A stretch of DNA of 21,392 nucleotides from a virus: the IMG/VR virus record IMGVR_UViG_3300046804_000302, positions 1-21,392 of that record; one strand, 5' to 3'. Shown here piece after piece: positions 3,483 to 19,471 of the stretch. Within the stretch, counting starts at the first letter, position 1. Each line of letters opens with the position of its first letter. Below the pieces are notes generated by a model. The model saw only the letters and a list, made by a program, of their open reading frames with translations, did no database searches and had not been told where the DNA came from. Made by a program: the position numbers and the translations under genes.

Positions 3483-3490
3483 TATTTATA
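3483..3490 (-). promoter_or_regulatory. T4-type late promoter octamer upstream of groES
   Basis: The exact sequence TATAAATA, the T4 late promoter -10 recognised by the gp55 sigma factor, lies on the minus strand about 60 bp before groES. It overlaps the stop codon of the preceding nucleotidyltransferase gene. Such an octamer could drive late expression of groES and the two tRNAs. Confidence 0.55.
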
Positions 3491-4196
3491 GCGATAATTC
3501 TTGATCTTGGTTAGTCCTTTGATAAGCAGATAGCTTGTCAAGATAACCTTGGTTTCTTAGCTCTTTGAAGACTAGGTTTTCAAATGAAAACTCTCCACCC
3601 TTCTTAATAGCTGCACCACGCATGTCGCGTAGTTTTTCTTTGAAGTGTTTTACTGAATCAAGGTCTACATGATTATCAATCATATCATCAATCATCTTCA
3701 TATAGAACTTAACCTTCTTTTTAAGGTATGGATCTTTTAAAAATTCATCACCAATAAATTCTGGCTTTGCTATCCATTCGTTATTTGTTAATGAGTACAC
3801 ACCCTGATTTTTAGGGTATTCTACCGACTCATCTTGCGCATAAGGCTCTAATCCATATCCAAGGATAGTAATCTTATGGGACATAGTCCACATTTGTTTT
3901 TTATCTTGTAAGTAATCGTCTAATAGAGGATTATCTTTTGCTATAGCGGATTTATCAACAACAAGATGTACATCAATATCAGACATGTCAGTATAGTTAT
4001 AGTTGGCATTGCCACCAAGCATAATAACTTCTTTAACAGCTTCTTTAGGGATCTTAGCAAATTGTCTCCACACTTCGCCAAATTGTAATAGTTTGGCTCT
4101 TACCTCTGGCTTCAACACAAAATCATTCCAGAGTTTTGGGTTCAACTCTTTATGGTATTGTAATTGAAGTTTTAATTCTTTTAGAGTTAATTTCAT
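3486..4196 (-). CDS. Nucleotidyltransferase of the DNA polymerase beta superfamily
   Basis: The 236-aa protein carries the Pol-beta nucleotidyltransferase signature: GGNANYNY (from residue 61) followed by MSDIDVHLVV, in which D73-x-D75 would bind the catalytic metals. The pattern G-G/S...D-x-D, followed by a hydrophobic strand, is standard for this fold, which transfers a nucleotide to RNA, protein or an antibiotic. A third acidic residue is expected further on but I cannot place it with confidence. The N-terminal region (NPKLWNDFVLKPEVRAKLL) looks like the leading helix block of homologues in other myophages. The start ATG overlaps the stop of the upstream coiled-coil gene (ATGA). The substrate is unknown; toxin-like or RNA-modifying roles are possible. 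Confidence 0.75.
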   Translation of the reverse strand: MKLTLKELKLQLQYHKELNPKLWNDFVLKPEVRAKLLQFGEVWRQFAKIPKEAVKEVIMLGGNANYNYTDMSDIDVHLVVDKSAIAKDNPLLDDYLQDKKQMWTMSHKITILGYGLEPYAQDESVEYPKNQGVYSLTNNEWIAKPEFIGDEFLKDPYLKKKVKFYMKMIDDMIDNHVDLDSVKHFKEKLRDMRGAAIKKGGEFSFENLVFKELRNQGYLDKLSAYQRTNQDQELSL

Positions 4197-4582: not shown

Positions 4583-5177
4583 TATAGATCTTTTCCTGTT
4601 GTGCTACCCAGTCTTGTAAAGCTTTTAATCTTTCGCTTAACTGATGGTAGTTGTTATAATTGATCGTTACTGTTTCTCCGATGGTAGAGAGTTTAACGGA
4701 ACTGGCGGTTCCATCAATTCCTTGGGAGGAGTCGGGAACTTCATTTTTTGCGGCAGAATCGTGGAGCACGACAAAAGATTTAGGCACAACGCACTTAGCG
4801 TCAGCGTCTTTATTGACATACTCAGTAACTTTCTTAATGATAACATCACCCTTCTCCTTAACTACCTTTGTTTTTGTAATATACTTAGTAACTACTTGTT
4901 TTGAATTCTTTTCAGATAATGCAACCTTACGGTCCATATCTGCTTTAAGTTTTGCAGCTTCAGCTCTCCACTTCATTTCAGTAGAATAACTACCAAAGAA
5001 GTATACGCCAGCAATCAATACTAGTGTTGATATTCCTTTAATCAATGCTGATGCAGTCTTAATTCCAGGAATAAATCCACCGAAGGTTCCAACAAGATAA
5101 CCTGTTGCACCAATACCCATTACTGCAATGACAGCTTGGTATAACCAACTATCTGGTATAAAACTCAGCATCCACAT
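4572..5177 (-). CDS. Inner-membrane spanin (Rz-like) with two N-terminal membrane segments
   Basis: The 201-aa protein has two hydrophobic segments (residues about 12-35 and 44-63), then a charged coiled coil (about 66-120), then a C-terminal domain with KCVVPKSFVVLHDSAA, a P-rich stretch and NYNNYHQLSERLKALQDWV. That last block is the pattern of Rz-type inner-membrane spanins (C-x-VP-x-x-FV-x-L-x-D-x-AA ... N-Y ... QL-x-x-LQ-x-W). Spanins join inner and outer membranes and disrupt the outer membrane in the last step of lysis of Gram-negative hosts. Two membrane segments instead of one are unusual; the first could be a fused holin-like hairpin. An outer-membrane spanin is embedded in another frame of the same gene. 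The start overlaps the stop of the upstream gene (TAATG). No endolysin lies in this window. Confidence 0.7.
   Translation of the reverse strand: MWMLSFIPDSWLYQAVIAVMGIGATGYLVGTFGGFIPGIKTASALIKGISTLVLIAGVYFFGSYSTEMKWRAEAAKLKADMDRKVALSEKNSKQVVTKYITKTKVVKEKGDVIIKKVTEYVNKDADAKCVVPKSFVVLHDSAAKNEVPDSSQGIDGTASSVKLSTIGETVTINYNNYHQLSERLKALQDWVAQQEKIYNGN
4667..4846 (-). CDS. Outer-membrane spanin lipoprotein (Rz1-like), fully embedded in the Rz-like gene
   Basis: This 59-aa frame lies wholly inside the inner-membrane spanin gene, shifted by one. It encodes a positively charged N-terminus, a hydrophobic signal core and a lipobox LLSC, so the mature lipoprotein would be 33 residues from the cysteine, with eight prolines (for example FPTPPKELMEPPVPL). 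A short, proline-rich lipoprotein nested in an Rz gene is the classic Rz/Rz1 arrangement of lambda. The ATG at 4846 is preceded, at seven bases, by a strong AAGGAG. A GTG at 4849 directly before it is a possible alternative start. The -2 residue of the lipobox is Leu, slightly off the most common pattern. Together with its host gene it should form the periplasm-spanning complex. Confidence 0.8.
   Translation of the reverse strand: MLSLRKLLSMSIKTLTLSALCLNLLSCSTILPQKMKFPTPPKELMEPPVPLNSLPSEKQ
4854..4859 (-). promoter_or_regulatory. Internal ribosome-binding site for the embedded spanin
   Basis: AAGGAG on the minus strand, seven bases before the ATG at 4846, lies in the middle of the inner-membrane spanin coding region. 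Such a strong site inside a coding sequence is unexpected unless an internal gene is translated, and it decides the start of the embedded lipoprotein. Confidence 0.7.
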
Positions 5178-5737
5178 TATACAGGCTTCGCTCTTCTAGT
5201 CATGCCGACGATAGGACCACCAGCATTCATTTGTTTATATTTGTTTACATCTTTCTTTTTTGGTACTGGGATATCTGTAGATACAGCAGCACCAGTAGAA
5301 TTGGTAGGAGCACCGCCGACTGCGCCGGCACCCATACCGTCTTCTTCTAGTTCTTTCATGTACTTCTCTACGATTAATAGTTCTTCAGCTAATAAAGCAT
5401 CAGACTCCATTAATCTATTGAACTTCTCTTCCATCATTGAGATAGAACGATCGTTCTTTTGATAATACTCTTTGATTAGGAAATATGCACTTACTAAACT
5501 CTTTAGCTTACTTTCCCCTCCAGGCAGTTTGTTGATAATCTTCTTCATGTTGAAGACCAATCGATGGAGATAGGTATAGGCATTCCTCTCTGCGTCAGTA
5601 TTGAGCAAAGAAGATCGTTTGAGGTTTTTACCTTTTGAGTCGATGATACCCAATTTGTAGGCATCTGTGTCTACAAATGGTTTTACCAACATAGAAAGTA
5701 CGCGGTAAGCTACTAAGTTGTCTATTAATCGTGACAT
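5177..5737 (-). CDS. Conserved T4-type marine phage protein, function unknown
   Basis: The 186-aa protein starts MSRLIDNLVAYRVLSMLV and contains the blocks KPFVDTDAYKLGIID and YTYLHRLVFNMKKIINKLPGG, which I recognise as typical of a protein found in many T4-type cyanophages and relatives; no function is known to me. It is mostly helical to residue about 130, then a Gly/Ala/Pro-rich linker and a basic tail ending RRAKPV. No membrane segment or catalytic motif is visible. It overlaps the spanin gene below (TAATG) and the gene above (TAATG), so the three are translationally coupled. A virion or assembly role is possible from the linker-and-tail shape, but this is only a guess. Confidence 0.7.
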   Translation of the reverse strand: MSRLIDNLVAYRVLSMLVKPFVDTDAYKLGIIDSKGKNLKRSSLLNTDAERNAYTYLHRLVFNMKKIINKLPGGESKLKSLVSAYFLIKEYYQKNDRSISMMEEKFNRLMESDALLAEELLIVEKYMKELEEDGMGAGAVGGAPTNSTGAAVSTDIPVPKKKDVNKYKQMNAGGPIVGMTRRAKPV

Positions 5738-7119: not shown

Positions 7120-7127
7120 TATTTATT
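7120..7127 (-). promoter_or_regulatory. Near-consensus late promoter octamer before the Ig-domain gene
   Basis: AATAAATA (7 of 8 against TATAAATA) lies on the minus strand 24 bp before the ATG at 7096, followed by ATACTTTT and AGGAG. It overlaps the stop codon of the upstream 511-aa gene. The spacing matches the two better late promoters at 13762 and 20648. Confidence 0.4.
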
Positions 7128-8662
7128 TATTTTGGTAAGTGTAGTGTGTACTCTCTACCATCGATAGAGTTGTCTTTACCTACACCCTTTTGTCTAGCAC
7201 CTGACTTAGATCCATGTGGTCTGCCACGTCCACGTTTCTCTTGTTTTTCATTATCAGGTTTCTCATCACCTTCATCATCTTTTTGATTACTACCGCCGTA
7301 TGCAGTACCCTTATTTAAAGTAATATGAGGGTGCTTGTCATCCGCCTTATAGTCCTTGTCATAAGCAGACTTTGTAGCTGCTCTTAATCTTTGTGCATCA
7401 CGTAGATCATCGATCTTACCTTCATCCATAACTGCAAGCGTAGCTTTTAGGTATGGTGACATCTCAGCTGAAACATCTTCTGCTACTGATTTGTATGTGT
7501 TAGCTTTACCTTGTTGGTATGCAGCCTTAGTTGCACCCGGTAGAGCAGCAACAGCACCAACTGTTTTAGCGATAGTACCTATTGCTTGACCACCTAATTC
7601 AGCTGTACCTTTACCAGCATCTTTTAGTTCGTTACCAACACGTGCAATACCTTTTACGATCTTACCAGTAAATGTACCTGCTTCTTCGATCTCTTCTGCT
7701 TCTTCACCTAATTTTTTATTTGCATGTGCTAAAGCTTTTGTAGTTTTAGATAGCTGATGAGCAGCTGCATCATGAAAACTTTTAGCTTTTTCATATTTAG
7801 GACCATCTTTCTTTTTGCTTGCATCCATTCTTTTTTGTAGTTCATCTACATCAAACTTTCTTGCATTAATACTATGGGTTCCATGATGACCTGTAGCCAT
7901 ATCTTTATATTTCTGATATGAATCTTTTGATAATTCATCGATCTGTTCTACTTCTTCTTTAGCTAACTTGTCAATAGCTGTATCGATACCTTTTTCTCTA
8001 TTGCTAATACGTTTAGCATCAAATGGTCTCATTGTTTGTTGCCATTTAAGATCTTTAGTTGCCTTCTTAGCGTATGAACCTAATGCTCCTTTTGATAATT
8101 CATCTATCTGTTCTACTTCTTCACCGATAGAACCAGCTGGTTGACCTTTAGCTTTGTTCTTATCTTTTGGCATTGTCGATGTACCTTTTGGAGCAGAAGC
8201 ACCAGTCTTTACACCAGAAGCAGGGAATGCTTTCTCAACTTCATGTTTGTAAGTGCCTTCGCCTAACTGTGCTAACTTACCTTCAATAGCTTCTACTTCT
8301 TCTTTAGAAAGCACTGATTGTAAACCGCGTTGTGCTAAAGCTTTAGCACGGTCCATTTCATGGCCTTTTTCTACCGGCTTCTTGAAGTTTGTAGGATCAT
8401 AATGATGTTTAGGATGACCGTAATGTTTATGGAACTCATCATGACTCATGTCTTTAAGATCCATTGCAAGCTCTTTCATCTTGCCTTCATCAAGCTCTTC
8501 AATTTGTTCTGCTTCTTCTTTACATTCAAGTTTAGCGCCAGCACGTAATGCTTTTAAATCATCTGAATCGATTTTATCTTTATCACCAGCTAAACCAGCG
8601 ATCTTCTTTTGCTTAGGAGAAAGTTCCTTAGCTTCCTTTAAATAGTCGTTAAACTTTAACAT
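7127..8662 (-). CDS. 511-aa repeat protein with capsid-targeting-like N-terminus (predicted internal head protein)
   Basis: No enzymatic domain is recognisable. The N-terminus MLKFNDYLKEAKEL closely parallels the T4 internal-protein targeting sequence (MKTYQEFIAEA), with LKE-A as a gp21-type (L/I)-x-E site. The body is highly charged and Lys/His-rich. Two copies of the unit EEVEQIDELSK are seen at residues 181 and 236, each followed by a Y/K-rich helix (GSYAKKATKDL; QKYKDMATGHH), with looser copies near 48 (EEAEQIEEL) and 320 (EEAEEIEEA). Each holds an I-x-E site. A glycine/alanine segment lies at about 330-385. Near the C-terminus KRGRGRPHG (476-484) is an AT-hook-like DNA-binding motif. The start overlaps the stop of the 935-aa gene (TAATG). 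Packaging and proteolysis in the prohead are inferred. Confidence 0.75.
   Translation of the reverse strand: MLKFNDYLKEAKELSPKQKKIAGLAGDKDKIDSDDLKALRAGAKLECKEEAEQIEELDEGKMKELAMDLKDMSHDEFHKHYGHPKHHYDPTNFKKPVEKGHEMDRAKALAQRGLQSVLSKEEVEAIEGKLAQLGEGTYKHEVEKAFPASGVKTGASAPKGTSTMPKDKNKAKGQPAGSIGEEVEQIDELSKGALGSYAKKATKDLKWQQTMRPFDAKRISNREKGIDTAIDKLAKEEVEQIDELSKDSYQKYKDMATGHHGTHSINARKFDVDELQKRMDASKKKDGPKYEKAKSFHDAAAHQLSKTTKALAHANKKLGEEAEEIEEAGTFTGKIVKGIARVGNELKDAGKGTAELGGQAIGTIAKTVGAVAALPGATKAAYQQGKANTYKSVAEDVSAEMSPYLKATLAVMDEGKIDDLRDAQRLRAATKSAYDKDYKADDKHPHITLNKGTAYGGSNQKDDEGDEKPDNEKQEKRGRGRPHGSKSGARQKGVGKDNSIDGREYTLHLPK
7892..8122 (-). repeat. Two coding repeats of the EEVEQIDELSK module
   Basis: Units at 8122-8057 and 7957-7892 encode EEVEQIDELSK followed by an 11-residue helix ending in A-T; the first eleven residues are identical. 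The same unit recurs three times in the neighbouring 935-aa gene, so the repeats span two genes. Confidence 0.8.
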
Positions 8663-11469
8663 TACTTAGCTCCTTTTGTTGAATGCTTTTTAGAGTCGAA
8701 CTTTGTCCATGTTTCGTCATGTGGCATATCGACTTCATTTAATTTTTTAACATGGTGCATAACTTCAGCATGATCTAAAGATCTATTAGAATCTCTTTGA
8801 CCTTCAAAGTCTGTGATATGAGCCTTCGTTACGTTCTTACCATGTTTCTTTACTAGTTCTTTTGCAATAGCTGCATAGTCATCATGACCTTCAACTACTG
8901 TTTCTTCTGTATACTTTTCTACATCTGATGTTTTTGTAGCATGTGATGCACGGTGTTTAGCTTTGTTTCTACCATACTTCTTATAGAATGTATATGCATC
9001 AAGGTTCTTCATATCATCTTCTTCAGATTTACTTAAGAACGCTTCTTTCATGCCCATCATTTTCTTCTTCTCAACTGCATCTTTTTCTGGAGTCTCAATA
9101 CCCTTTTCTAAGTATTTGGGAGTTTGTTTATCTCCATTAAATGCTTTTTGAGCAACTTCTCTATTCTTAAAGAATGTAGCTAATACTTTATGACCACGAG
9201 ATTCTTCTACAGCTTCTTCTCTGATATGTTTGTTTCTATCATCTACTGATGTTTGTGATTTACTATTGAAACCACTTACAGCAGATTTAGTATAACCCTT
9301 TTTCCAAATACTGCCAGTTCTATTGATGAATGTCTTTTCGCTAGGTCTTGGCTTACGTGTAGGTAATGTTTCAACTTTACCACCCTTTTTTAAGTAAGCA
9401 GCAATAGCTGTTTGATACTGTTTATCAGTATATGCTTCTGCCAATGACTTATGTGGTACAGATGTCTTTTGTGTACCATATGAACCACCATGGAAGTGTA
9501 CTGTATCATTGTCACGTGTTGCTTTCCACTTACGACCTGTCTCATCTTTAAATGAATGTGATTCACCGTGTTTTAACTTAGCGATTGGCTCATGGTGTTC
9601 AGGATGTAGAGGGATTGAGAATGATTTACCGTGGTTAACAGTCTTCATTGTACCCCAATCATACTTACGTGTAGATACTGTTGCTTCTTCGATCTGCTCT
9701 TCTTTAAGTGATCTCTCTGCACGCTCATCACCTTTAACTCTGTTTGATAGCTTACGCATATCATCTTTATCTGTCTTCTTATAAGGGTTTTGATGGATGT
9801 CATATGCACGATCTACATCTTTACCAGCTTTATCTCTGTAAGATTGGTATGTACTCTTGTTTAGTTCATCGATCTGTACTTCTTCCTTAGCCATCTTAGT
9901 AGTAGCTTTAGGGATATTAACTAAACGTTTGTTAGCGCGAGCAAACTCCTTATTAGCTAGATCATGTTTCTTTTTAGAAGCATCCCAATCACTAGCTGCA
10001 GTATGTTGTAATGATTGTGCAGTATACTCTTTACCTTGATAAGCACCAGAAGCCGCATCATGTGCAGCTTTGTTTACATAATTAGCAAGAGTTTTCTTAG
10101 ATAACTCAGTGATAGTTTCTTCTTTAGTTAACTTATCAACAGCTTTAGCAATACCAGTTTCACGTTTCCATGATTTTGATAGGTATTTTCTATGTAGTCT
10201 TTCAAAGCTATCTTTCTTAGATTGTTTACGTGCTTTGTCACCTTGGTTTTCAAAGTCAGTTGCAATTTGACCCATATAGCGAGAATCTTTAGCAGCTTTG
10301 TTTACATATGAACCTAAAGTCTTCTTAGATAACTCATTGATAGTCTCTTCACCTAATGCAGCCATAACACGTTTGTTACCATGTTTATTGTTTAAGATGT
10401 GGCTAATAGCATGTTCTTTAGTTCTGAACTCTGAAGTATCGATGATCTTGTGTTGTTGTTTGATGATACCACGAAGTGTGCCGATATCATGTTTCTTTAG
10501 AGAATCATATTCTTTTTTGATATCTTCATGTAACTCTTTAAACTTAGACCATGCTTCTTTCTCACCATCATATGAATGCAATAGTTTTGAATTATGAAGA
10601 TCTTTAACAGATGGATTGCTCTTCTTATTATGTAATACATGCCATTTATCAGATGACTTAGTTAAGATAACATGACCACCTGATTTATGAGGTGCATCTG
10701 CTTTAACTTCATGCTTAGCGATTAGTTCCACACTTTCTTTTAACTTAGCTACTCTGTGTTTGTGCATCTTAACGATATCACCGCTAGCAGTTTTAATATG
10801 CCACATATCACCAGTGCGTGATGAAGATGAGCCAACAACTGTACCGTGTTTACCAGAATCAAGACCAGAACCAGCTAATACGGCAGCTTTATGACCAACC
10901 GCTACTTTAGCATCACGATCGATAGGACCATGATCATAACCTTCTTTAAAGTCTTTAACTTCTTTTTTCTTTTGTGTTAAAGGGATAGGTGGATTTAATA
11001 CCTTCTTCTTATCGACTACGTCTGTACCAATACCTTTATACTCTACAGCTTCTGATAGGTCTGCATAGCATGTTTTATGTGGGCATTTATCTACGTGACG
11101 TTTAAAATGTTCTGCGTCTTCTTTTGATTTGAATTTAAAGAATGCTCCTTTATCTGAGTGACCAGCCCACTGACCACCATGATGCATTGCGCCAGTCTTA
11201 ACATGTTCAATATCTTTTGGATGTGGAACTTCATCATACTTAGAACCATCAGATACATGTACTAAATGTTCTTCTTTAGCCTCATTTACAGACTCATTCT
11301 TTTGTGCACCATAATATGCACCCTTTGCCATCTCAATACGTTCAGCTTTAGTCTTACTAGCAAACTTTGGATTCTTAGAATGTACAAAATCGTCGATCCA
11401 TTTTTCAATAGGATCTGATGGTTTTAAAACTTCGTTAATCTGTGATATAAATTCTTTTAAAGACTTCAT
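8662..11469 (-). CDS. 935-aa modular basic protein, predicted internal head polyprotein
   Basis: The second largest shape in the window is a hydrophilic, Lys/His-rich mosaic without a known enzyme. Its start, MKSLKEFISQINEVLKPSD, is tag-like, with INE-V as the nearest cleavage motif. I see modules in order: KW-rich helix (20-60); an H/C segment with HVDKCPHKTCYADLSEA (about 70-141); a beta-like unit with GTVVGSSSSRTGDMWHI (about 180-245); a unit with GGHVILTKSSDKWHVLHN (about 255-310); three ELSKKTL/ELNKSTY repeats at 374, 450 and 529; and a unit with YQTAIAAYLKKGGKVETLP (about 680-735). Sites of the (L/I)-x-E type fall at joints: LSE-A 138, LKE-S 243, INE-L, ITE-L, IDE-L, IEE-A 593, LAE-A 676, LNE-V 910. 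Both ends are TAATG overlaps, with Dps upstream and the 511-aa gene downstream. The polyprotein idea is inference; a scaffold or DNA-binding core protein is the alternative. Confidence 0.75.
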   Translation of the reverse strand: MKSLKEFISQINEVLKPSDPIEKWIDDFVHSKNPKFASKTKAERIEMAKGAYYGAQKNESVNEAKEEHLVHVSDGSKYDEVPHPKDIEHVKTGAMHHGGQWAGHSDKGAFFKFKSKEDAEHFKRHVDKCPHKTCYADLSEAVEYKGIGTDVVDKKKVLNPPIPLTQKKKEVKDFKEGYDHGPIDRDAKVAVGHKAAVLAGSGLDSGKHGTVVGSSSSRTGDMWHIKTASGDIVKMHKHRVAKLKESVELIAKHEVKADAPHKSGGHVILTKSSDKWHVLHNKKSNPSVKDLHNSKLLHSYDGEKEAWSKFKELHEDIKKEYDSLKKHDIGTLRGIIKQQHKIIDTSEFRTKEHAISHILNNKHGNKRVMAALGEETINELSKKTLGSYVNKAAKDSRYMGQIATDFENQGDKARKQSKKDSFERLHRKYLSKSWKRETGIAKAVDKLTKEETITELSKKTLANYVNKAAHDAASGAYQGKEYTAQSLQHTAASDWDASKKKHDLANKEFARANKRLVNIPKATTKMAKEEVQIDELNKSTYQSYRDKAGKDVDRAYDIHQNPYKKTDKDDMRKLSNRVKGDERAERSLKEEQIEEATVSTRKYDWGTMKTVNHGKSFSIPLHPEHHEPIAKLKHGESHSFKDETGRKWKATRDNDTVHFHGGSYGTQKTSVPHKSLAEAYTDKQYQTAIAAYLKKGGKVETLPTRKPRPSEKTFINRTGSIWKKGYTKSAVSGFNSKSQTSVDDRNKHIREEAVEESRGHKVLATFFKNREVAQKAFNGDKQTPKYLEKGIETPEKDAVEKKKMMGMKEAFLSKSEEDDMKNLDAYTFYKKYGRNKAKHRASHATKTSDVEKYTEETVVEGHDDYAAIAKELVKKHGKNVTKAHITDFEGQRDSNRSLDHAEVMHHVKKLNEVDMPHDETWTKFDSKKHSTKGAK
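9820..10350 (-). repeat. Three coding repeats of the EE-x-I-x-EL-x-K module
   Basis: Units begin at 10350 (EETINELSKKTLGSYVNKAA), 10122 (EETITELSKKTLANYVNKAA) and 9885 (EEVQIDELNKSTYQSYRDKA). The first two differ at only three of 20 residues. Each is followed by about 55 residues of variable helix, then the next unit. Confidence 0.85.
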
Positions 11470-11921
11470 TATACTTCTCCGAGGTTTTTAATACTAGCAT
11501 GTAGCTGCCACTCAAACTTTTTATGCTTGTCCATACGATCAGCTACAAAGTTAGCAAGGCCTTGTTGTTTTTGTAATGTTGCTTCATCAAATAAAGCAGA
11601 AAGGCTTTGTAATAGCTGTGTATTTGCTTGTAATAAACTAACACACATGTCTACACATGTTTCTGGTTTAGCTGAATCTTCTGTAATAGTCTTGTATCCA
11701 TATAACTCCATTAAACTTACAGGAGCATATACATCAAGCTTTCTTAATTCTTCTGCAAATGGATCTACAGCACCATACACGTCTTCATAGATCTCACCGA
11801 AGAAGTCATGGAATTGGCTGAAGTGAATGCCTTCCACGTTCCAATGATGTGAATGAGCTTTAAAGTACATGATAAACGTATTACCAAGTACTAACTTTAA
11901 TGATGCGACTAATTTATCCAT
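11469..11921 (-). CDS. dps: Dps-like ferritin-fold protein
   Basis: The 150-aa protein belongs to the Dps/ferritin-like family, whose dodecamers oxidise and store iron and often protect DNA. The signature runs HHWNVEGIHFSQFHDFFGEIY...VDPFAEEL. Set against E. coli Dps, the ferroxidase ligands H26, H38, D53 and E57 are present, but the place of the acidic residue four after the second histidine is Gly42, with E43 next to it, so iron-site geometry may be altered. There is no lysine-rich DNA-binding tail at either end. It lies between two genes for predicted internal or modular proteins and ends in a TAATG overlap with the 935-aa gene, so it is probably made late with them. Whether it protects phage DNA, handles iron or sits in the virion cannot be told. 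Confidence 0.85.
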   Translation of the reverse strand: MDKLVASLKLVLGNTFIMYFKAHSHHWNVEGIHFSQFHDFFGEIYEDVYGAVDPFAEELRKLDVYAPVSLMELYGYKTITEDSAKPETCVDMCVSLLQANTQLLQSLSALFDEATLQKQQGLANFVADRMDKHKKFEWQLHASIKNLGEV

Positions 11922-11929
11922 TTACCTAT

Positions 11930-13729
11930 TTATTCCTTTGCTAATCTACGCTTTGTTAATTGATCAAAGTCAAAGTCGACGTTTTCTTTCTTTTGCTTTT
12001 CCATAAATGCTGAGAATGTATGGTCTCTTGTACCACCACCCAGTCTGTCAGCATCTTTCTTTTTAGGAGCTAATTCAGGTGGAAGAGGTTTAACTTTAGC
12101 TATCGTATCAGAACCAACTTCTCCTTCAGCTACAAACTTAGTAGCAAAGTCTTCATCCATTAGATCGCCTTGTACTGACTCAGTTGCATACATTACTTTT
12201 CTACGACGTAGATGATGGTCAGTAGCTAGTGTGTGGCCAGGCGCAGTTTGTGGATGACGTGGCCATTGTGGCTCAAGGTCATCTATTTGTTGGCCAATAT
12301 TTGGGTCGATAGGCATGCTTACTTCTTTTGCAGAAGGCATAACACCACGATCTTTCTTAAACATCTTCATTACGTCTTGGTATCTGCGAGCGCTCTTACC
12401 AATGTTTTCGTTGCTATGTTTACCGATGTCAAGATCTTCTTTGATCTTGTCTGCATGAGGTTTAATCATGTCGTCAAGCGTTTTACCATGTTTTGCCCAT
12501 ACTTCTTGATGTGCATCAAACTTACCAAGGTGTACTAATGTATCCTTAGCTTGGATATGTGCAGCTTTCCAAGTCTTTAATTTATCGACTGAAGGGTTAT
12601 CACCATATTGACCATGCAACTCCATGTATGCGTCTGTTGTCTTAACAGCTTTTAACATACCAACTGGATCTTTAACATCTTTAGTTGATAGCTCAAATGC
12701 TTTTGCAGTGTCTGAGCAGTGATGGAAGTTCTTTGTAGTATAACCTTTATAGCAGAATTGCTTAGGATCTACAGCCTCTTTTAGTTTATGTTGGTCGTAC
12801 TCTTTATCTAAAGCATGTTTACGACGAATTAACTCAGATGAAAGATCTGCATCTTTATGAGTGTTCTTGTCTAGTTGAAGATCTTGGATAGCTTTTGATT
12901 TAGCTTTATAATCTCCGTGTGGATCATTAGCATTTAATGAAGATTCTGGGATGCAGTTAGGAACTGTCTTACCGTTTTTCTTTTTAAGACCTAGTTGTTT
13001 GTAGCCTTTCCAGCAAGCTTCAACTAGGTTTACATCTTTAACCCATTTTCTATGAAGGTCACCAGACTTGTCAACTACCACTAAGTAGTTTGCGCCTCTG
13101 TCCATGATTTCATACTCTACACCAGCAGATTCAACGATATCACCGATATGGTAGATCTCGCCTTTAAAGTACTTGTCTCTTAATGTATCGATAGAGAACT
13201 TAACTTCTTCCTTGATAGCTTCAAGGCCAAACGTTTGTCTCATCTCATTGAATAGACGCTTAGCATCGATGTCTCTGAATGATGACGGCATGTTCTTTTT
13301 GAATGAAGTGTAGTCACCCTTTGTGATGATTGACTTCATCTTGATCTCATTGAGGTCTTCAGATACAACTACTTGTACTGACTCCATGAGGTTCTTTGTG
13401 ATTGCTTTTTTGGATTCTTCTGAAGTAACTACTATGACGTTCTTGTACCTCTTTTTAAGGCTCGCAACTTCCTCTTCCAATGTGCCTTTTAAAGGTACAA
13501 AGTTAACACCATTAAACATGATGTCTAAGAAGTGTTGTTGTCTGTCAGTGGGTAGACTGCCTGAGGACTCTTTGATGTATACGGCATGGTCAGCATTATT
13601 GAGTTTTACTAGCTTCTCAACTAGTTTAAAGCCTAATTCATGCTGAGCTGTTGGAGGTGAAAAGCTATCAAAAGAGATCACGATGCTCTTTGACGGCAAT
13701 TCTTTTACGAGTTGTCTATAGTTCTTCAT
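11930..13729 (-). CDS. 599-aa modular protein with N-terminal cytidylyltransferase-like domain
   Basis: Residues about 12-125 look like the nucleotidyltransferase Rossmann fold: a hydrophobic strand SIVISFDSFSPPTAQHE, in which TAQH stands where active enzymes have H/T-x-G-H, so the glycine is missing, and no ISxTxxR motif follows. The domain may be inactive. Further on come the block ACWKGYKQLGLKKKNGKTVP (238-257), familiar from many myophage proteins, a related FCYKGYTTKNFHHCSDTAKAF block (325-345) with Cys and His that could bind metal, and a disordered, charged C-terminal third. LKE-A at 316-319 separates two modules, as in the neighbouring predicted internal proteins. The N-terminus MKNYRQLVKEL is only loosely tag-like. 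An exact late octamer lies 33 bp upstream. Function unknown; a packaged or prohead-associated protein is plausible. Confidence 0.7.
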   Translation of the reverse strand: MKNYRQLVKELPSKSIVISFDSFSPPTAQHELGFKLVEKLVKLNNADHAVYIKESSGSLPTDRQQHFLDIMFNGVNFVPLKGTLEEEVASLKKRYKNVIVVTSEESKKAITKNLMESVQVVVSEDLNEIKMKSIITKGDYTSFKKNMPSSFRDIDAKRLFNEMRQTFGLEAIKEEVKFSIDTLRDKYFKGEIYHIGDIVESAGVEYEIMDRGANYLVVVDKSGDLHRKWVKDVNLVEACWKGYKQLGLKKKNGKTVPNCIPESSLNANDPHGDYKAKSKAIQDLQLDKNTHKDADLSSELIRRKHALDKEYDQHKLKEAVDPKQFCYKGYTTKNFHHCSDTAKAFELSTKDVKDPVGMLKAVKTTDAYMELHGQYGDNPSVDKLKTWKAAHIQAKDTLVHLGKFDAHQEVWAKHGKTLDDMIKPHADKIKEDLDIGKHSNENIGKSARRYQDVMKMFKKDRGVMPSAKEVSMPIDPNIGQQIDDLEPQWPRHPQTAPGHTLATDHHLRRRKVMYATESVQGDLMDEDFATKFVAEGEVGSDTIAKVKPLPPELAPKKKDADRLGGGTRDHTFSAFMEKQKKENVDFDFDQLTKRRLAKE

Positions 13730-13761
13730 TTTTATCCATCTATATAATTAATATCTAGTAT

Positions 13762-13769
13762 TATTTATA
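13762..13769 (-). promoter_or_regulatory. T4-type late promoter octamer before the 599-aa gene
   Basis: Exact TATAAATA on the minus strand, 33 bp before the ATG at 13729, followed by ATACTAG; a GGAT lies before the ATG. It overlaps the stop of the 78-aa gene. This should drive the late run of genes down to at least the 511-aa protein. Confidence 0.7.
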
Positions 13770-14001
13770 CGGCCGAGAGTATCACTTTTGTAATATTTAC
13801 GACCCATCTTGAAGTTACCTCATCTCCTGCAAGCTCGTCGTTAGCTTGTACATCACCGATTTGAGCTACTAGGTCTTTGAATTCTGCCTCTGTAAGTACA
13901 CCAGAATTGAATTGTTCTGTGATATCGTGTAGTTGAGTAGCCAATGCACCTTTAATTCCAGGCTCTCCCATTGCTTCTTGTAATTCTGCTAAGATTGACA
14001 T
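13765..14001 (-). CDS. Small phage protein, function unknown
   Basis: The 78-aa acidic protein (MSILAELQEAMGEPGIKG) has two predicted helices with the block FNSGVLTEAEFKDLVAQIGD and a hydrophobic C-terminal stretch, WVVNITKVILSAV, too short and broken to call a membrane helix. I do not recognise a family, though the GVLTEAEFK-x-L pattern resembles short SHOCT-like oligomerisation helices and small phage proteins of similar size. Its ATG comes one base after the lipoprotein stop (TAATATG), so it is translated from the same message. Confidence 0.6.
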   Translation of the reverse strand: MSILAELQEAMGEPGIKGALATQLHDITEQFNSGVLTEAEFKDLVAQIGDVQANDELAGDEVTSRWVVNITKVILSAV

Positions 14002-14002
14002 A

Positions 14003-14350
14003 TTAACGTCCCTTCCATGCTTTCTCTATGACCAATATTCTGGTCTTGTTAAGTTTAAGTGTAGCCTCACAGTAAGCTGTGGAGCCGTCTCGTGCTTTCT
14101 GCATAGCGATATATAGTTCTTCAAGTGTTTTGGCTTGTGGATCTTGCCTAAATTCTGTATACATGTTCAACCATCTTAGATCATCGATCAATGGCTGCCA
14201 TTCTTTATGATCCTTATCGATACAAGATAATGTTTCCATCTTTTGTTTAGCATCAATAAGTTTACCAGCTTCTACTGGATCATGTGGTACTGGCATAATG
14301 AAACTACAACCAGTCATGAGTAATGCTGCAATAAGTGTTAGTTTTTTCAT
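14003..14350 (-). CDS. Small lipoprotein, function unknown
   Basis: The 115-aa protein begins with a typical lipoprotein signal: MKKLTLIAALLMTGC, lipobox MTGC with Cys15 as the modified residue. The mature part is helical, with two further cysteines (C43 and C94) that could form a disulphide in the periplasm. It is longer than and lacks the proline-rich tail of an Rz1 spanin, and the spanin pair is encoded elsewhere in the window. Phage lipoproteins of this kind can block receptors against superinfection, so exclusion is one possibility. It is placed between a fibre-like gene and a small unknown gene with one-base gaps on both sides. Confidence 0.75.
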   Translation of the reverse strand: MKKLTLIAALLMTGCSFIMPVPHDPVEAGKLIDAKQKMETLSCIDKDHKEWQPLIDDLRWLNMYTEFRQDPQAKTLEELYIAMQKARDGSTAYCEATLKLNKTRILVIEKAWKGR

Positions 14351-14351
14351 A

Positions 14352-16010
14352 TTAATCCTCTGAGAATACTAGAGCTGCTGAGACCCTAGATATGTTTGAT
14401 GTTGATTTTATTGCTATACTTACATAACTTCCTGATGGGATGGCGATACGGAAGTCGCTTAGTCTATATTGTGCTTCTCCATTGATAGCTGTGATGAACC
14501 TACATACTGCAGTGTCTACAGTCTCATCAATTGTTCCATCCACAGTACTAATCATGCCATTATCTTTAGATTGACTACGATATGAATGGGTTCCAGAGAA
14601 TGATGTTGGTTCAAAGAATATGTACACGATACCAGGATCGTTTCCTTGTGTACCGATAGATATGTCTTTAAGGATGATCTCTTTTGCGTTTAGTATATAA
14701 TTACCATTGTATGCTCCTGCGGCTCCGTTAGTAACATATGGATTGCGCAGTGTTAATAAATGGTACAGAGTTCCAGCAGAGTTTAATGAAGTTTTACTTA
14801 CACTAGTAGATCTATTTAATTCATTTTGGAATATGGTACCTTCAATTGCCGCCATCATTGATGCACCAGTAACAGTTAGGTTGCTTGTGTTTGTTATATT
14901 ATATGCAGCATATGTTATCTTAAATGACGGGTTAGCCACATGTGGTACATTATTTTGGTTTGTATAATGTTCTTTATGAATGAATATCATGTTTCCTGTA
15001 GCTTGATCTTCTAAAGCATATCTAATCTCACCTGCACCCAACCAACGGAAGTTGATTTGATATACATTAAGTTTTGTTGGATCTAATGTCATCCCGCTTG
15101 GGTTGCGTGTGTGTCTCTCACCAGTCTCAGGATCTATTGCACCAAGAGTATCAACATTCCACTGATATTGATAAGTCCAATGATCTGTTTGTGCTATTCC
15201 AGCTTGTCGTTGAGCAAATGTACCTGATACAGTACCAGATCCAGTTAAACTATATGTTCCAGTTTTTGGTCCTAAAGTTGTGCTCATAAACACGATAGTG
15301 TTATCTACTTGATCAACTAACCAACCAGTGTATCCACCAACATGAGTTGCTATTGCCACTGCTGCGTCTTGTGGAGATGCAGTGTTTACGGTAACTGTGA
15401 ATGCTGTTCCATTTAATGTGATAGTAAGTGTCTGACTTCCTGTTGATATACTGTTGATAGTTAATTGTCTAATCTCAGTTTTACCACCAGTGCTTCTTAC
15501 AACACCAAATTTATCTCCATCATACCCGATAGCAATACGATTTTCTTGGTTTGCTAATCCAGCAAACTGTAAACTATTAGGAACTCCTGCAGTAAACGCA
15601 GCAGTAAACCTACAGAGAGCACCTTGGCCGGTACGATAGCGTATGAAGCGTTTAGATCTTACAACACCGTATCCGCCTGCAGTTGTTCCTGTATTTGCAG
15701 TGAATAAAGCACTTAATGGAGTTCCACCTGCGCCAGATCCTGTACCGTTATTATATGTTTGTATAACTTCAGGTGTGATACCATAGATCGCATCCAACTG
15801 GATAACAGGAGTGATACTAATACCATATTGTTCACCAAACGCCGTTACTGTACTTGGAGATTCTGCACGATCAATAGTAACAGTTCCAGTAATTACTGCA
15901 TCTGTGTGTATTGGATTTGCAGCACTGTTAGCTGATGTGTTCTTTGAAATTGGTATTGGATTACCAACATCGTTCTTAATCTCTTGGTTATTTGTAAATA
16001 AGTACGTCAT
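14352..16010 (-). CDS. Large beta-rich virion structural protein (fibre or baseplate-associated)
   Basis: The 552-aa protein from the ATG at 16010 is rich in Thr, Ser, Gly, Asn and Ala with alternating hydrophobic strands, as in tail fibres. Blocks such as YGVVRSKRFIRYRTGQG, FAGLANQENRIAIGYDGDKFGVV and NVYQINFRWLGAGEIRYALED look like a jelly-roll structural module of the kind found in several marine phage virion proteins. Within it (about residues 180-280) a Gly/Thr-rich stretch, with LTITLNGTAFTVTVNTAS and TGTYSLTGSGTVSGTFAQ, looks like an inserted beta repeat of the sort swapped between fibres. The ATG at 16010 follows GGAG at a good spacing and overlaps the upstream stop as ATGA; the ATG at 16022 would add four residues. 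The upstream 270-aa gene is a probable partner. Confidence 0.7.
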   Translation of the reverse strand: MTYLFTNNQEIKNDVGNPIPISKNTSANSAANPIHTDAVITGTVTIDRAESPSTVTAFGEQYGISITPVIQLDAIYGITPEVIQTYNNGTGSGAGGTPLSALFTANTGTTAGGYGVVRSKRFIRYRTGQGALCRFTAAFTAGVPNSLQFAGLANQENRIAIGYDGDKFGVVRSTGGKTEIRQLTINSISTGSQTLTITLNGTAFTVTVNTASPQDAAVAIATHVGGYTGWLVDQVDNTIVFMSTTLGPKTGTYSLTGSGTVSGTFAQRQAGIAQTDHWTYQYQWNVDTLGAIDPETGERHTRNPSGMTLDPTKLNVYQINFRWLGAGEIRYALEDQATGNMIFIHKEHYTNQNNVPHVANPSFKITYAAYNITNTSNLTVTGASMMAAIEGTIFQNELNRSTSVSKTSLNSAGTLYHLLTLRNPYVTNGAAGAYNGNYILNAKEIILKDISIGTQGNDPGIVYIFFEPTSFSGTHSYRSQSKDNGMISTVDGTIDETVDTAVCRFITAINGEAQYRLSDFRIAIPSGSYVSIAIKSTSNISRVSAALVFSED

Positions 16011-16819
16011 ACTATTCTCCATCCATTCCTATAAATTAGTTGAATGGCTCCGTTATTAATTTGAATTATAAATCCACCTGCATCATTATCAACATTTCCT
16101 GTTACAGTAATTGGGTTTGTCTCTGCATCGCCGTCTTCGTCTTTGATGATAAGCATCCTTCCAGAACTTGTCGTTGTGGGCAATGTTATTGTAACTGGTC
16201 CTGCATAGTTAACACCAATATAAAAATCATTGCTTGCAACTGTATAAGTCGGTGTTGTAACTTGAGTAGTGTTGTGAACTACTTCGTATGGGTTGATCTC
16301 ATCGAATACAAACTTCTTACGAGAATCGTCATACTTTAACCAACGACCATCTGAGATAGTTTCTCGTGCTACGTCATCTAACCATCTAAGGTTAACTTCA
16401 CCACCACCTGGTCCTGTTGCAGCTATACGACCGATAGCTTGCTCAAGGAACCTCATCTTTTGTCTAATAGCATCTATCTCAGGATTGACAAAATCCGGAT
16501 TAGGTTGTTGGAATGACTTATCTGTTAAATATTTATTGACATCTGAATCCACCTGTTTAGCTCTTACTTCAGGTGTATGGATGATTGGTTGTGCAGGGAT
16601 CTCTTCAGTTAACATGTCTTCAACGATCATGTCTTCTTGTTTAGATTCCTCAAGTTTGTCTACTTGTCTTTGTAGTGAGGATAACTCTTCAAAGAGTTTT
16701 GCAAGATCTGACTTAGCATGATCTTTTGCCTCTTTGATTTTCTTTCCTACTGGATCTGTGGTCTCGTAATGCTTTTTACCTTCAGCAAGAACCTTGAATA
16801 GTTCATTAAGATCTGACAC
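16007..16819 (-). CDS. Fibre-like virion protein with coiled-coil stem and beta tip
   Basis: The 270-aa protein starts MSDLNELFKVLAEGKK, followed by a coiled coil (about 25-65, LFEELSSLQRQVDKLEESK), a Pro-rich linker and a second short helix (RQKMRFLEQAIGRIAATG). A connector, GPGGGEVNLRWLDDVARETI, leads to DGRWLKYDDSRKKFVFDEI. The C-terminal 90 residues are beta-rich (TYTVASNDFYIGVNYAG, VTITLPTTTSSGRMLIIKD, GAIQLIYRNGWRIV), a tip-like module common in trimeric phage fibres and in bacterial surface proteins. The layout (anchor, coiled coil, beta tip) is that of a short fibre or tail-collar component. The stop overlaps the next start as ATGA. The gene directly follows the internal-protein cassette with no gap, which suggests one transcript. 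Confidence 0.7.
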   Translation of the reverse strand: MSDLNELFKVLAEGKKHYETTDPVGKKIKEAKDHAKSDLAKLFEELSSLQRQVDKLEESKQEDMIVEDMLTEEIPAQPIIHTPEVRAKQVDSDVNKYLTDKSFQQPNPDFVNPEIDAIRQKMRFLEQAIGRIAATGPGGGEVNLRWLDDVARETISDGRWLKYDDSRKKFVFDEINPYEVVHNTTQVTTPTYTVASNDFYIGVNYAGPVTITLPTTTSSGRMLIIKDEDGDAETNPITVTGNVDNDAGGFIIQINNGAIQLIYRNGWRIV

Positions 16820-17428
16820 TTATATGCTTCCGTGATGTACGTCATGCATTAGTTCTTTTGCATGTTTATCTGATACATGTTCTGGTACACCCTTACGGAA
16901 CTCGTGGAAGTTACCAGTCTTAGCGTGATGTCTTTGTTTAGTAGCAGATATGCCATGTGTACCTTCAGCATCAGGATCTCTATGACCAGCAGAATGTACT
17001 GTTATCTTTTTAAAGTTATAACCGTGACCACCTGCAGATGTAGAGCCATTATACTTATGTAGTAATGTGTGCATCTCTTTCTTACGATCAGAACCAACCA
17101 CTACATGTAGATGTGTTACACCTTTCTTATGTAATTCTGATGCATGATGCAAGATAGTTGGTGATTCTTTTGATGCAGCTTTAAAGTTTGTCTTAGGTGA
17201 ATAACGTTTAAGGTGTTTCATCTTTTGATCTGCAGATAGTGGGTTCTTTTTCTTATCTTGGCTGTGTGATGTCACCACTGTGTGTTCGGCTTTATGTTTA
17301 TCTGCAACGTCATGTACTTTATGGATTACTGCCATATGACCTGTAGTTGGAGGGTTCATACGACCAAAAGCCAACACATGGTGTTTGGCTCCAGCTTCTT
17401 CGATTAGGTAGTCTTTAAAATTTTGCAT
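16820..17428 (-). CDS. His-rich T-x-G-H nucleotidyltransferase with capsid-targeting-like N-terminus
   Basis: The 202-aa protein starts MQNFKDYLIEEAG, a close match to the tag of its neighbours, with LIE-E as a possible prohead protease site. The rest is a full nucleotidyltransferase of the cytidylyl/NMN-adenylyl type: VLAFGRMNPPTTGHM, in which T28-x-G30-H31 binds the nucleotide phosphates, and GISATKQR (159-166), the ISxTxxR motif. Such enzymes join a nucleotide to a phosphorylated small molecule, as in NAD or lipid-head-group synthesis; the substrate is unknown. It is remarkably His-rich (28 of 202 residues) and basic, unusual for a cytosolic enzyme but shared with other proteins of this cassette. 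I chose the ATG at 17428, which overlaps the upstream stop as TAATG, over one at 17440. Confidence 0.8.
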   Translation of the reverse strand: MQNFKDYLIEEAGAKHHVLAFGRMNPPTTGHMAVIHKVHDVADKHKAEHTVVTSHSQDKKKNPLSADQKMKHLKRYSPKTNFKAASKESPTILHHASELHKKGVTHLHVVVGSDRKKEMHTLLHKYNGSTSAGGHGYNFKKITVHSAGHRDPDAEGTHGISATKQRHHAKTGNFHEFRKGVPEHVSDKHAKELMHDVHHGSI

Positions 17429-17703
17429 TAGCAGTTCCACTTACGAAGAGCAAGTGCCTTTCTTGTTGGTTTACCATGTTCGTCCTTCATTGGGCCTTTA
17501 ACGCCGCTCATGCGCGCGCAGAATGACTTACGTCTACCTGCAGCTTTACCTTTAGGATCAAGCTTGGATGGAGGTGTAGTCACAGCCATTTTAAGGTGAT
17601 GACCAGGATTTTCTCTATTATACTTATCGACACCAGCACGAGTCAACCCACCAGTCTCTGATTTATATTTGTTCTCTTCTAAGTATTCTTTGAATGTTAG
17701 CAT
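17428..17703 (-). CDS. Small basic SFCARM-type protein with capsid-targeting-like N-terminus
   Basis: The 91-aa protein starts MLTFKEYLEEN, the cassette tag with LEE-N as a possible cut site. After it comes a highly conserved block: GGLTRAGVDKYNRENPGHHL, a linker, AVTTPPSKLDPKGKAAGRRK, SFCARMSGVKGPMK and a C-terminal GKPTRKALALRKWNC. I recognise this as a family spread across phages, large viruses and bacteria (I believe Pfam DUF6321) with no known function. It is strongly basic, with two cysteines (SFC and the C-terminal Cys) conserved in the family, so nucleic-acid binding is plausible. Both ends are TAATG overlaps. The tag in front of an otherwise free-standing family looks like an added targeting peptide. 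Confidence 0.82.
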   Translation of the reverse strand: MLTFKEYLEENKYKSETGGLTRAGVDKYNRENPGHHLKMAVTTPPSKLDPKGKAAGRRKSFCARMSGVKGPMKDEHGKPTRKALALRKWNC

Positions 17704-18875
17704 TATTTTCGTACCTTTAATAAGTTGGCTCTACTAAACTCTGCACGATCTACTAACTTAGTAGGTTCACCCTTATGATTCACTACATAACCCTCTGGAT
17801 TTGTAGGCTTATCTTCGATGTGATGAGTTAATGATCCTGCATTACTGTTTAATGTCTTGACTAATACGTTCTTTGCTTTTTGTAAATGCGTATGCATCTT
17901 TAAAGCATTCTCATATTGTTCTTTATGTTTTTGAATATGATCGACTTGTGCTTGTGCTTCAGCTTGTTTCTTTTGTGCTCCAGCTGCAGTCTTAAGTCTT
18001 GATTGGACTATCTGAGACTTATCCATAATATGCTGTTGTAAACCTCTTGCAGTTGGCTTCTCGTTCTTACGAACTGTTTGGTTAATATAAGTTGATAGAT
18101 GACCACCTTCACCAGCATGTGGTTCGATAGCAGCATACATCTTTTTGCCGCCTTGATCATGAAGCTTATGAGCAGCTTCCATATTTTTCTTATATTCTAC
18201 TTGATCCTTAGGTGCAAAGTCTGTAGTTGATGTATCATGTTCAGCGTTCTTATGATATACATCAGGGTGTTCTTTGAACTTAGCTTCAACGTTTGGGTTT
18301 GCTCTCATGTCATGGATATCTGTACCATGATATTGCTGATGTACTACAACACCAACTTTTGCGTTCTTAACTTTTTGGGCTTCTTGACCATGAGCTGTAT
18401 ATTTAATAGTGTTAGGTGTAAATGATGCAGATCCGTCTGGATTCTTTTTAACATCTCCATGGCTAAACATCATGTCACCTTGGAATACACCTTTCTTAGG
18501 AGCAACCTTTGGTAGGTGTTCTAATCCAGCTTTTAGTTTATCTACAAGACCTGGAGCATGACCGTGATGTAGCTCGATGTCTTTTTCATTATAGTTAATC
18601 TTTGGGTTCTTATTGAATGCAGACTTAGAAGCTACAAAGAACTTACCAGTCTTTGGATGATGACCAAACACAATAGATGGTGATCCATCATACTTCATTG
18701 TTAGGTTAGAGCTCTTATGACCAGACTTAATATGTTCATGTGCTTGGTTTAAAGCTCCTACTGCATGTTCAAACCCTTTGGCTCCATGCATTAAAGGACG
18801 ATCCTCTGGATGGTGGATATGCTTTAATTTGCCTTCATCGGCAGATTCTGTTAAGTAGTCTTTAAAATTAATCAT
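17703..18875 (-). CDS. Ligase-type covalent nucleotidyltransferase with capsid-targeting-like N-terminus
   Basis: The 390-aa protein starts MINFKDYLTESADEG, tag plus LTE-S cut motif. The rest carries motifs of the DNA/RNA ligase and capping-enzyme superfamily in the right order: motif I MKYDGSPSIVF (K61-x-D63-G64, the AMP-accepting lysine), a motif III-like VFQGDMMFS (130-138), a IIIa-like KVGVVVHQQYHG (173-184), motif IV EGYVV (361-365) and a motif V-like KLVDRAEF (373-380). Between IIIa and IV lies a 150-residue insertion with a long coiled coil (about 285-340). The family would be expected to attach AMP to itself and then to a nucleic-acid 5' end. It lacks a recognisable OB-fold domain; length is near RNA ligases. 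It is His-rich like its neighbours and overlaps the HAD gene as ATGA and the small basic gene as TAATG. Ligase activity is inferred. Confidence 0.7.
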   Translation of the reverse strand: MINFKDYLTESADEGKLKHIHHPEDRPLMHGAKGFEHAVGALNQAHEHIKSGHKSSNLTMKYDGSPSIVFGHHPKTGKFFVASKSAFNKNPKINYNEKDIELHHGHAPGLVDKLKAGLEHLPKVAPKKGVFQGDMMFSHGDVKKNPDGSASFTPNTIKYTAHGQEAQKVKNAKVGVVVHQQYHGTDIHDMRANPNVEAKFKEHPDVYHKNAEHDTSTTDFAPKDQVEYKKNMEAAHKLHDQGGKKMYAAIEPHAGEGGHLSTYINQTVRKNEKPTARGLQQHIMDKSQIVQSRLKTAAGAQKKQAEAQAQVDHIQKHKEQYENALKMHTHLQKAKNVLVKTLNSNAGSLTHHIEDKPTNPEGYVVNHKGEPTKLVDRAEFSRANLLKVRK

Positions 18876-19471
18876 TTTATTTGGTTAACGCTTCCATCTA
18901 AATGTGCATGCCATGCTGTAAATTTAATGTCTTTAAAGTGATTTTCTAATCTTAGAAAAGCCTTTAGGTTATTTATACTATCATCAAAGAGACGAACCTT
19001 ATTAAACTTTTTAGTGTTCAAATAGTTATATATGATGACAGCTTTTGCTTCAGCTGCACTTAAGCCTTTAATCTTGCCAGCCCTTTCTACTCGAACTTGA
19101 CTTATATCAAATCCATACTTCTTAAAAGTACTGAGGAACTTGTCTCTATTATCAAGGTCAGGCCTTGCTGTGACTATGATTACTTTATTGTTTGGGTGTT
19201 TCTTAGTATCAGCTAAGATTGCCTTAGCTTTATTAAGCATCTTTGTGATTGGGGTAGATTCTTTATAGAACTTATTAGAATCTGAGAACTCTGAGAAGTC
19301 TACAGACTCACCCTTAGCTAAATGATAGGTGTTATATTCAGCAGATGTTATCTTCTTAATAACCTTACCAGACTTACGGATTATGATTTTGGCTGTAGTA
19401 TGGAATAAGGTATCATCAATATCGAATATTGTTAGGTAACCGTCTTTTGTGAATTCTTTAAATTTAAGCAT
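18872..19471 (-). CDS. HAD-family phosphatase, possibly polynucleotide 3'-phosphatase-like
   Basis: All HAD motifs are present in the 199-aa protein: motif I TIFDIDDTLF (D17-x-D19-x-T21), motif II VIIVTARPD (T101), a lysine in the right zone (AEAKAVIIYNYL, K143) and motif IV VRLFDDSINN (D163-D164). The cap-like insert after motif I and VTARP resemble the phosphatase half of T4 polynucleotide kinase and other phage HAD proteins. Next to a ligase-like gene with an ATGA overlap, a role in trimming 3'-phosphates before sealing is attractive but unproven. The start MLKFKEFTKDGYL carries the first half of the cassette tag (M-x-x-F-K-E-F) but no L-x-E site, so it may be a decayed tag or coincidence. 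It has its own extended -10 promoter. Confidence 0.85.
   Translation of the reverse strand: MLKFKEFTKDGYLTIFDIDDTLFHTTAKIIIRKSGKVIKKITSAEYNTYHLAKGESVDFSEFSDSNKFYKESTPITKMLNKAKAILADTKKHPNNKVIIVTARPDLDNRDKFLSTFKKYGFDISQVRVERAGKIKGLSAAEAKAVIIYNYLNTKKFNKVRLFDDSINNLKAFLRLENHFKDIKFTAWHAHLDGSVNQIK
18970..18977 (-). promoter_or_regulatory. Possible internal late promoter octamer in the HAD gene
   Basis: An exact TATAAATA lies on the minus strand inside the HAD coding sequence (it encodes the S-I-N of DDSINN), about 95 bp before the ligase-like gene. It could allow late expression of the tagged cassette and fibres without the HAD gene. It may also be chance, since the motif is constrained by protein sequence. 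Confidence 0.35.

Follow-up and report, generated by a model that had tools for sequence, protein, structure and literature searches.

A shared N-terminal tag on unrelated proteins of a T4-like phage, including enzymes, is very probably a capsid-targeting sequence

Why do an RNA-ligase-like DUF6267 protein, a nucleotidyltransferase (NTase 1), a DUF6321 protein and a modular protein of 511 amino acids (aa) from one phage begin with almost the same 11 residues? The question is raised by the 21.4-kb IMG/VR record IMGVR_UViG_3300046804_000302 (21,392 nucleotides, hereafter the window), which comes from a T4-like phage and carries every gene on the minus strand, with a gp41-type helicase at its right edge and a gp61-type primase and NrdA at its left. 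Gene names were assigned from the matching gene order in HTVC008M and in G001, a 122-kb contig whose DUF6267 protein is 56% identical to that of the window. On the evidence described below, the shared peptide (the tag) very probably serves as a capsid-targeting sequence (CTS) of the T4 type, with enzymes among its cargo.

The four near-identical leaders described in the initial annotation were all confirmed, on the minus strand and at the positions listed in Table 1. In its strict form, M-x-x-F-[KN]-[DE]-Y-L-x-E, the pattern is matched by 4/22 window proteins, compared with 2.5e-6 expected from the window's own amino-acid frequencies (P(>=4) ~1e-24). A looser rule derived from T4 mutagenesis (position 4 aromatic; position 7 Phe, Tyr, Leu or Trp; position 8 aliphatic; position 10 Glu) gives five proteins, the addition being NTase 2 (599 aa), whose leader had been missed in the original list. 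The looser leader forms reported for the HAD protein (MLKFKEF) and the 935-aa protein (MKSLKEFISQINE) also hold, and relatives of the HAD protein carry a full tag, namely MLKFKEYITEQ (contigs L004 and L008), MLNFKEYIKEQ (L005 and L006) and MLKFKEYLLEE (L011 and L012). The bodies behind the tag differ, as had been claimed, being unrelated in domain searches and clustering. Synonymous codons vary among the leaders (Tyr TAC/TAT, Leu TTA/CTA, Phe TTT/TTC), indicating that the peptide and not the DNA is what is shared; a common DNA element as the source of the likeness is thereby ruled out.

The tag extends well beyond the window. In viral contigs, at least 120 stretches have the tag downstream of a ribosome-binding site, compared with 4 for a permuted pattern, and internal-ATG controls seldom exceed the score threshold, which rules out chance or start-codon bias as the origin of the matches. 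Common ancestry of the genes as old paralogues, or chance recurrence of short amphipathic N-termini, might be considered given the shortness of the peptide and the adjacent, overlapping arrangement of some genes, but the unrelated bodies and both controls make this explanation hardly credible. Among the matches listed there are 121 tagged proteins, 116 of them long enough to be clustered after removal of the tag, and these fall into 37 clusters. The largest cluster matches the virion structural protein family phrog_14802 (65 proteins), followed by DUF6321 (11) and DUF6267 (6), while the singletons include a P-loop kinase, an HD phosphohydrolase, a possible GNAT protein, a HAD protein and many unknowns; a singleton HTH protein in L033 is probably a chance match. 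Members of the phrog_14802 family are about 200 aa long and start with MKSFKEYLTES or a similar leader in the scan (e.g. in L018 and L051), and their relatives in the jumbo phages PA5oct and 121Q are structural proteins encoded between the neck and terminase genes, with a degraded tag. When DUF6267 proteins were gathered through their own conserved motifs and not through the tag, 59/79 were tagged under a strict rule, and several of the remainder have near-tags that this rule misses. NTase homologues gathered in the same manner have a tag score >8 in 53/80 cases; in at least five of these homologues (L358, L360, L364, L366 and L396) the best start is that of a DUF6267 protein in the same open frame, and the NTase appears to follow a tagged DUF6267 in a fusion like that of phrog_455.

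The likeness to the T4 internal-protein (IP) leader that had been proposed holds at the level of individual positions. In an alignment of 34 DUF6267 proteins, columns 4, 7, 8 and 10 of the leader have entropies of 0.53, 0.85, 0.67 and 0.00 bits, corresponding to F/L at 4, F/Y at 7, L/I at 8 and Glu at 10 in 34/34 proteins, and columns 2, 3, 5, 6, 9 and 11-13 exceed 2 bits. In T4 IPIII the first 10 residues are needed for packaging, with residues 4 and 7 serving mainly in targeting and residues 8 and 10 in processing (PMC9026906); the conserved DUF6267 columns are those mapped by mutagenesis in that protein. In the AF2 model of DUF6267, residues 1-13 are poorly predicted and precede a well-predicted domain, as expected for a removable leader. 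A profile of the tag run on 273 T4 open reading frames (ORFs) places gp61.1, IPII, IPIII and IPI at the top; the profile was built from pattern matches that included the IPII/III peptide, so that the ranks of these two are not independent. The first-ranked gp61.1, a 54-aa hypothetical protein (NC_000866, 18966-19130; L414), starts with MKTFKEFIKED and outscores the known internal proteins, making it a candidate for an unrecognised T4 internal protein on the strength of this leader.

A T4-type leader calls for a gp21-type prohead protease, a check that the initial annotation had suggested. In G001 an S77 protease of the gp21 type is encoded (1.2e-32) with gp20, gp22 and gp23 around it, and G001 gp23 has a likely cleavage site, LNE|A. 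S77 proteases are present in 5/8 tag-bearing contigs of >=100 kb. In G001, 7-8 of the 205 ORFs score for the tag, including DUF6267, a 630-aa NTase, a 321-aa protein and a gp61.1-like protein, and one tag-scoring ORF, encoding a short protein, adjoins the prohead genes close to gp21. None of the recognisable replication genes in the listed G001 stretches is tagged.

Virion mass spectrometry had been named as a further check, and published proteomes of related phages place tagged NTase homologues in the virions of S-CREM2, S-SZBM1 and S-SCSM1, together with four other tagged S-CREM2 proteins. For S-CREM2, 52 virion proteins have been published (PMC10665884), and all of its ORFs scoring >8 are among them (5/5; P = 6e-4, or 4e-5 without named structural genes). 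These are the cytidylyltransferase ORF154 (MKNFSSFLTEA), the APH/ChoK-like kinase ORF14 (VKRFDAFLTEE), the SAM hydrolase ORF6 (MKDFDSFLEEF), ORF13 (MKDLHSFLTEQ) and ORF136 (MQTFSMFFSED). The Cas9-like ORF12, likewise a virion protein, carries LRFASFMAEA beginning at residue 17, where the leucine is encoded by CTG. ORF154 is homologous to window NTase 1 only from residue 18 on (34%), so the leaders were matched separately from the domains. Of the 30 virion proteins listed for S-SZBM1 (PMC9146016), the one enzyme given special mention is a cytidylyltransferase starting with MRFRQFIIEA, and the NMNAT found in virions of S-SCSM1 (PMC9602691) is most likely the NTase of that phage that starts with MKSFLQFLKEA. 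The tag could instead recruit proteins to another partner or place, such as the membrane, the replication centre or the neck, with the virion findings reflecting lysate carry-over, a concern raised by the S-CREM2 authors (PMC10665884) and compatible with the location of the phrog_14802 family between neck and terminase genes. This is quite improbable, since positions 4, 7, 8 and 10 match the T4 CTS, tag and detection coincide in S-CREM2, and the usual replication enzymes are absent from the S-CREM2 and S-SZBM1 virion lists.

Among the proposed cargo, DUF6267 looks like an RNA-ligase-type nucleotidyltransferase in its motifs and predicted fold. Residues K61, D63 and G64 of the K-x-D-G motif (ligase motif I) are invariant in 34 sequences, as are QGD 132-134, EG-x-V 361-364, K373 and R377, which were assigned by eye to III/IV/V-like ligase motifs. 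The AF2 model has a pLDDT of 89, and RNA or DNA ligases make up all of the best 50 matches listed in VIA-align, led by Naegleria RNA ligase (Z 8.9), with T4 Rnl2 and Rnl1 at 7.6-7.7; Foldseek alone gave no significant match (best E 0.024). NTase 1 is cytidylyltransferase-like as judged from its sequence; searching PDB by sequence with it, DUF6267 or the HAD protein yielded nothing useful. These enzyme domains bear on the possibility that the tagged proteins are only core or scaffold helpers that are processed and stay structural or DNA-condensing, with their enzyme domains idle in the next host. Such a role would fit the largest tagged family (65/116 among the matches listed), which matches a structural family, the tag-like short G001 protein close to gp21, the abundance of gp21-type sites in the 511-, 935- and 599-aa proteins, which resembles diced scaffold, and the contribution of T4 IPIII to head assembly (PMC9026906). 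However, SAM hydrolase, kinase and NTase are among the packaged tagged proteins of S-CREM2, each with a recognisable enzyme domain, and the catalytic motifs of DUF6267 are invariant, which filler would not need. A helper role alone is possible but, in our estimate, rather unlikely.

The three long proteins just mentioned are modular, with an excess of gp21-type sites over shuffled sequences that do not preserve local Glu-rich clusters (Table 1). DUF6321 and the gp61.1-like peptide, which stand alone and tagged in some phages (the latter in relatives and, as gp61.1, in T4), keep [LI]-x-E at the junction when they are fused. Upstream of DUF6321 the motif occurs in 8/8 cases, about four of which are fused copies, and upstream of CWKGY modules in 10/25, a modest excess compared with 22% at random positions. 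These patterns are suggestive only of cutting of fused cargo or polyproteins by the prohead protease. The module CWKGY...GKxVPNC (window ~12955-13030) recurs in many unrelated phage proteins, including the virion protein S-CREM2 ORF160.

Taken together, loading of diverse proteins into the head, the first half of the central claim of the initial annotation, is well supported by the position match, by gp21 in G001 and by the virion proteomes of relatives, and a T4-type CTS that loads unrelated proteins into the head, with probable ejection thereafter, is with high confidence the best overall explanation. By analogy with T4, the tagged proteins would be made late in infection, residues 4 and 7 would dock them to the prohead core, the shell would enclose them, and a gp21-type protease would cut after [LI]8-x-E10 during head maturation. 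The RNA-ligase-like DUF6267, the cytidylyltransferase/NMNAT-like NTase, DUF6321, the second NTase and the long modular proteins would then remain in the head with the DNA, probably to be ejected into the next cell and to act in the first minutes of infection. Cleavage after x-x-E and release into the host are inferred from T4 IPI and Alt.

Several observations weigh against this explanation. The prohead genes, including gp21, lie outside the window, and the virion evidence comes from published proteomes of relatives, none of them from the window phage. Co-purification was considered possible by the S-CREM2 authors (PMC10665884), and the NTase detection rests on 3 and 2 peptides. The 105-aa protein S-SZBM1_191 has the best tag in its genome and is not on the virion list of that phage. 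The window HAD leader is without positions 8 and 10 of (L/I)-x-E. In the jumbo phage 121Q an S77 protease is encoded and no clear tag was found; in PA5oct strict tags are rare, with the best-scoring ORF annotated with an ESI-MS/MS note. A universal tag across T4-superfamily jumbo phages is therefore rejected, as none is clear in 121Q and the tag is nearly absent in PA5oct. The P-HM1 NTase and cyanophage DUF6267 proteins have no tag. The initial annotation had counted such tagless enzyme homologues as evidence against a cargo system, and in part this objection stands. The untagged DUF6267 of S-SZBM1 (MAKNTHLEH) is, however, absent from the 30-protein virion list, on which its neighbour, the tagged cytidylyltransferase, appears, as a real packaging signal predicts.

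Table 1. Tags, tagged proteins and neighbouring features in the window
Feature	Position	Strand	Remarks
Tag MINFKDYLTES on DUF6267 protein	18843..18875	(-)	F4, Y7, L8, E10; of the tag, only positions 1, 4, 7, 8, 10 have low entropy
DUF6267 protein, 390 aa, RNA-ligase-like nucleotidyltransferase	17703..18875	(-)	Motifs and predicted fold; residues 1-13 predicted disordered
Tag MLTFKEYLEEN on DUF6321 protein	17671..17703	(-)	Tag retained in L004-L008, L042, L076, L093, L110
DUF6321 protein, 91 aa	17428..17703	(-)	PF19846, 3.7e-24
Tag MQNFKDYLIEE on NTase 1	17396..17428	(-)	
NTase 1, cytidylyltransferase/NMNAT-like, 202 aa	16820..17428	(-)	34% identity to S-CREM2 ORF154 across residues 18-194
Tag MLKFNDYLKEA on 511-aa protein	8630..8662	(-)	Relative in L085 begins MINFKDYLKEA
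511-aa modular protein	7127..8662	(-)	Excess [LI]-x-E-[AGSED] sites, 6 vs 2.1 in shuffles
Variant tag MKNYRQLVKEL on NTase 2	13697..13729	(-)	Y4, L7, V8, E10; relatives MKNYKQFIKES (L395), MKQFRQLIKEL (L012)
NTase 2/modular protein, 599 aa	11930..13729	(-)	CWKGY...NC module ~13015-12955 between NLVE|A and CIPE|S
IPI-like variant leader MKSLKEFISQINE on 935-aa protein	11431..11469	(-)	Compare T4 IPI MKTFKEFTSTTTPVSTITE|A
935-aa modular protein	8662..11469	(-)	[LI]-x-E-[AGSED] sites 8 vs 2.5 in shuffles
Degraded tag MLKFKEF on HAD protein	19451..19471	(-)	F4, F7 kept; L8, E10 lost
HAD-family phosphatase-like protein, 199 aa	18872..19471	(-)	4-base overlap with DUF6267 start; weak match to polynucleotide-kinase PHROG
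gp61.1-like C-terminal segment of 186-aa protein	5177..5341	(-)	Behind junction KELEE|DGMGAG; likeness judged by eye
Untagged 236-aa protein	3486..4196	(-)	50% identity to S-CREM2 ORF156

The mechanical ORF of NTase 1 runs from a GTG at 17440, and its tag begins at the ATG at 17428. An untagged Dps/ferritin-like protein (11469-11921) has its gene between those of the 935-aa and 599-aa modular proteins; in L005, L006 and L012, too, it lies beside the gene for the 599-aa homologue. S-CREM2 ORF156, the homologue of the untagged 236-aa protein, has a weak NTP_transf_2 match and was found in virions; it may be packaged by another route or be carry-over.

Cyanophage virion proteomes repeatedly hold NMNAT-like transferases, kinases and a SAM hydrolase, with no known route of entry and a worry about contamination. 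A readable leader provides a possible loading route for such enzymes and helps to separate cargo from contaminants. It also allows candidate injected proteins to be listed from sequence alone in T4-superfamily phages, including uncultured ones, and since injected enzymes act before phage gene expression, such a list is where early counter-defence functions might well be sought. A more far-reaching proposal is that T4-like environmental phages inject an entire kit of enzymes by means of a single leader processed by gp21. Part of the kit would be synthesised as modular polyproteins and cut apart by the prohead protease within the head, and the kit would act as a pre-made RNA-repair set against RNA-cleaving host defences, with the NMNAT-like enzyme possibly countering NAD-depleting ones. 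The RNA-repair element is suggested by the overlap of the RNA-ligase-like gene with the HAD phosphatase gene and by a tagged polynucleotide-kinase-like protein in another phage; the proposal as a whole is speculative and unlikely to hold in this form.

One leader on many bodies is known for the T-even internal proteins and was already proposed for varying cargo in a T4 review (PMC9026906). The novelty lies in finding it in environmental T4-like phages and on enzymes, and in its agreement with virion proteomes. Among the open-licence papers retrieved by a text search for "capsid targeting sequence", none was on cyanophages by title. The window proteins resemble T4 IPI, IPII and IPIII (MKTYQEFIAE|A) in the N-terminal place and length of the leader, the aromatic residues 4 and 7, the aliphatic residue 8 and Glu 10, and in belonging to a T4-superfamily system with a gp21-type protease and one leader on unrelated bodies. 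In contrast to the T4 proteins, enzymes and long modular proteins are part of the cargo here, the genes sit between gp41 and gp61/nrdA, and the window and G001 each have about 5 to 8 tagged genes; cleavage of the leaders is predicted from T4. The ADP-ribosyltransferase Alt of T4 is likewise an enzyme in the head that is N-terminally processed by gp21, but its propeptide has 7 residues (PMC9026906) and nothing resembling Alt was recognised in the cargo here. In the Dar system of phage P1, a peptide at the N-terminus of DarB directs this large protein into the head, from which it is to be delivered (PMC9024508), although the signal is different, the Dar N-termini show no recognised consensus and the head assembly system is another, so that Dar is compared as an analogue only. 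A further parallel is offered by the virion NMNAT/cytidylyltransferases of S-CREM2, S-SZBM1 and S-SCSM1, which are tagged homologues of NTase 1 present in virions. The consulted passages of the three papers name no packaging signal for them (PMC10665884, PMC9146016, PMC9602691), and the tag supplies one.

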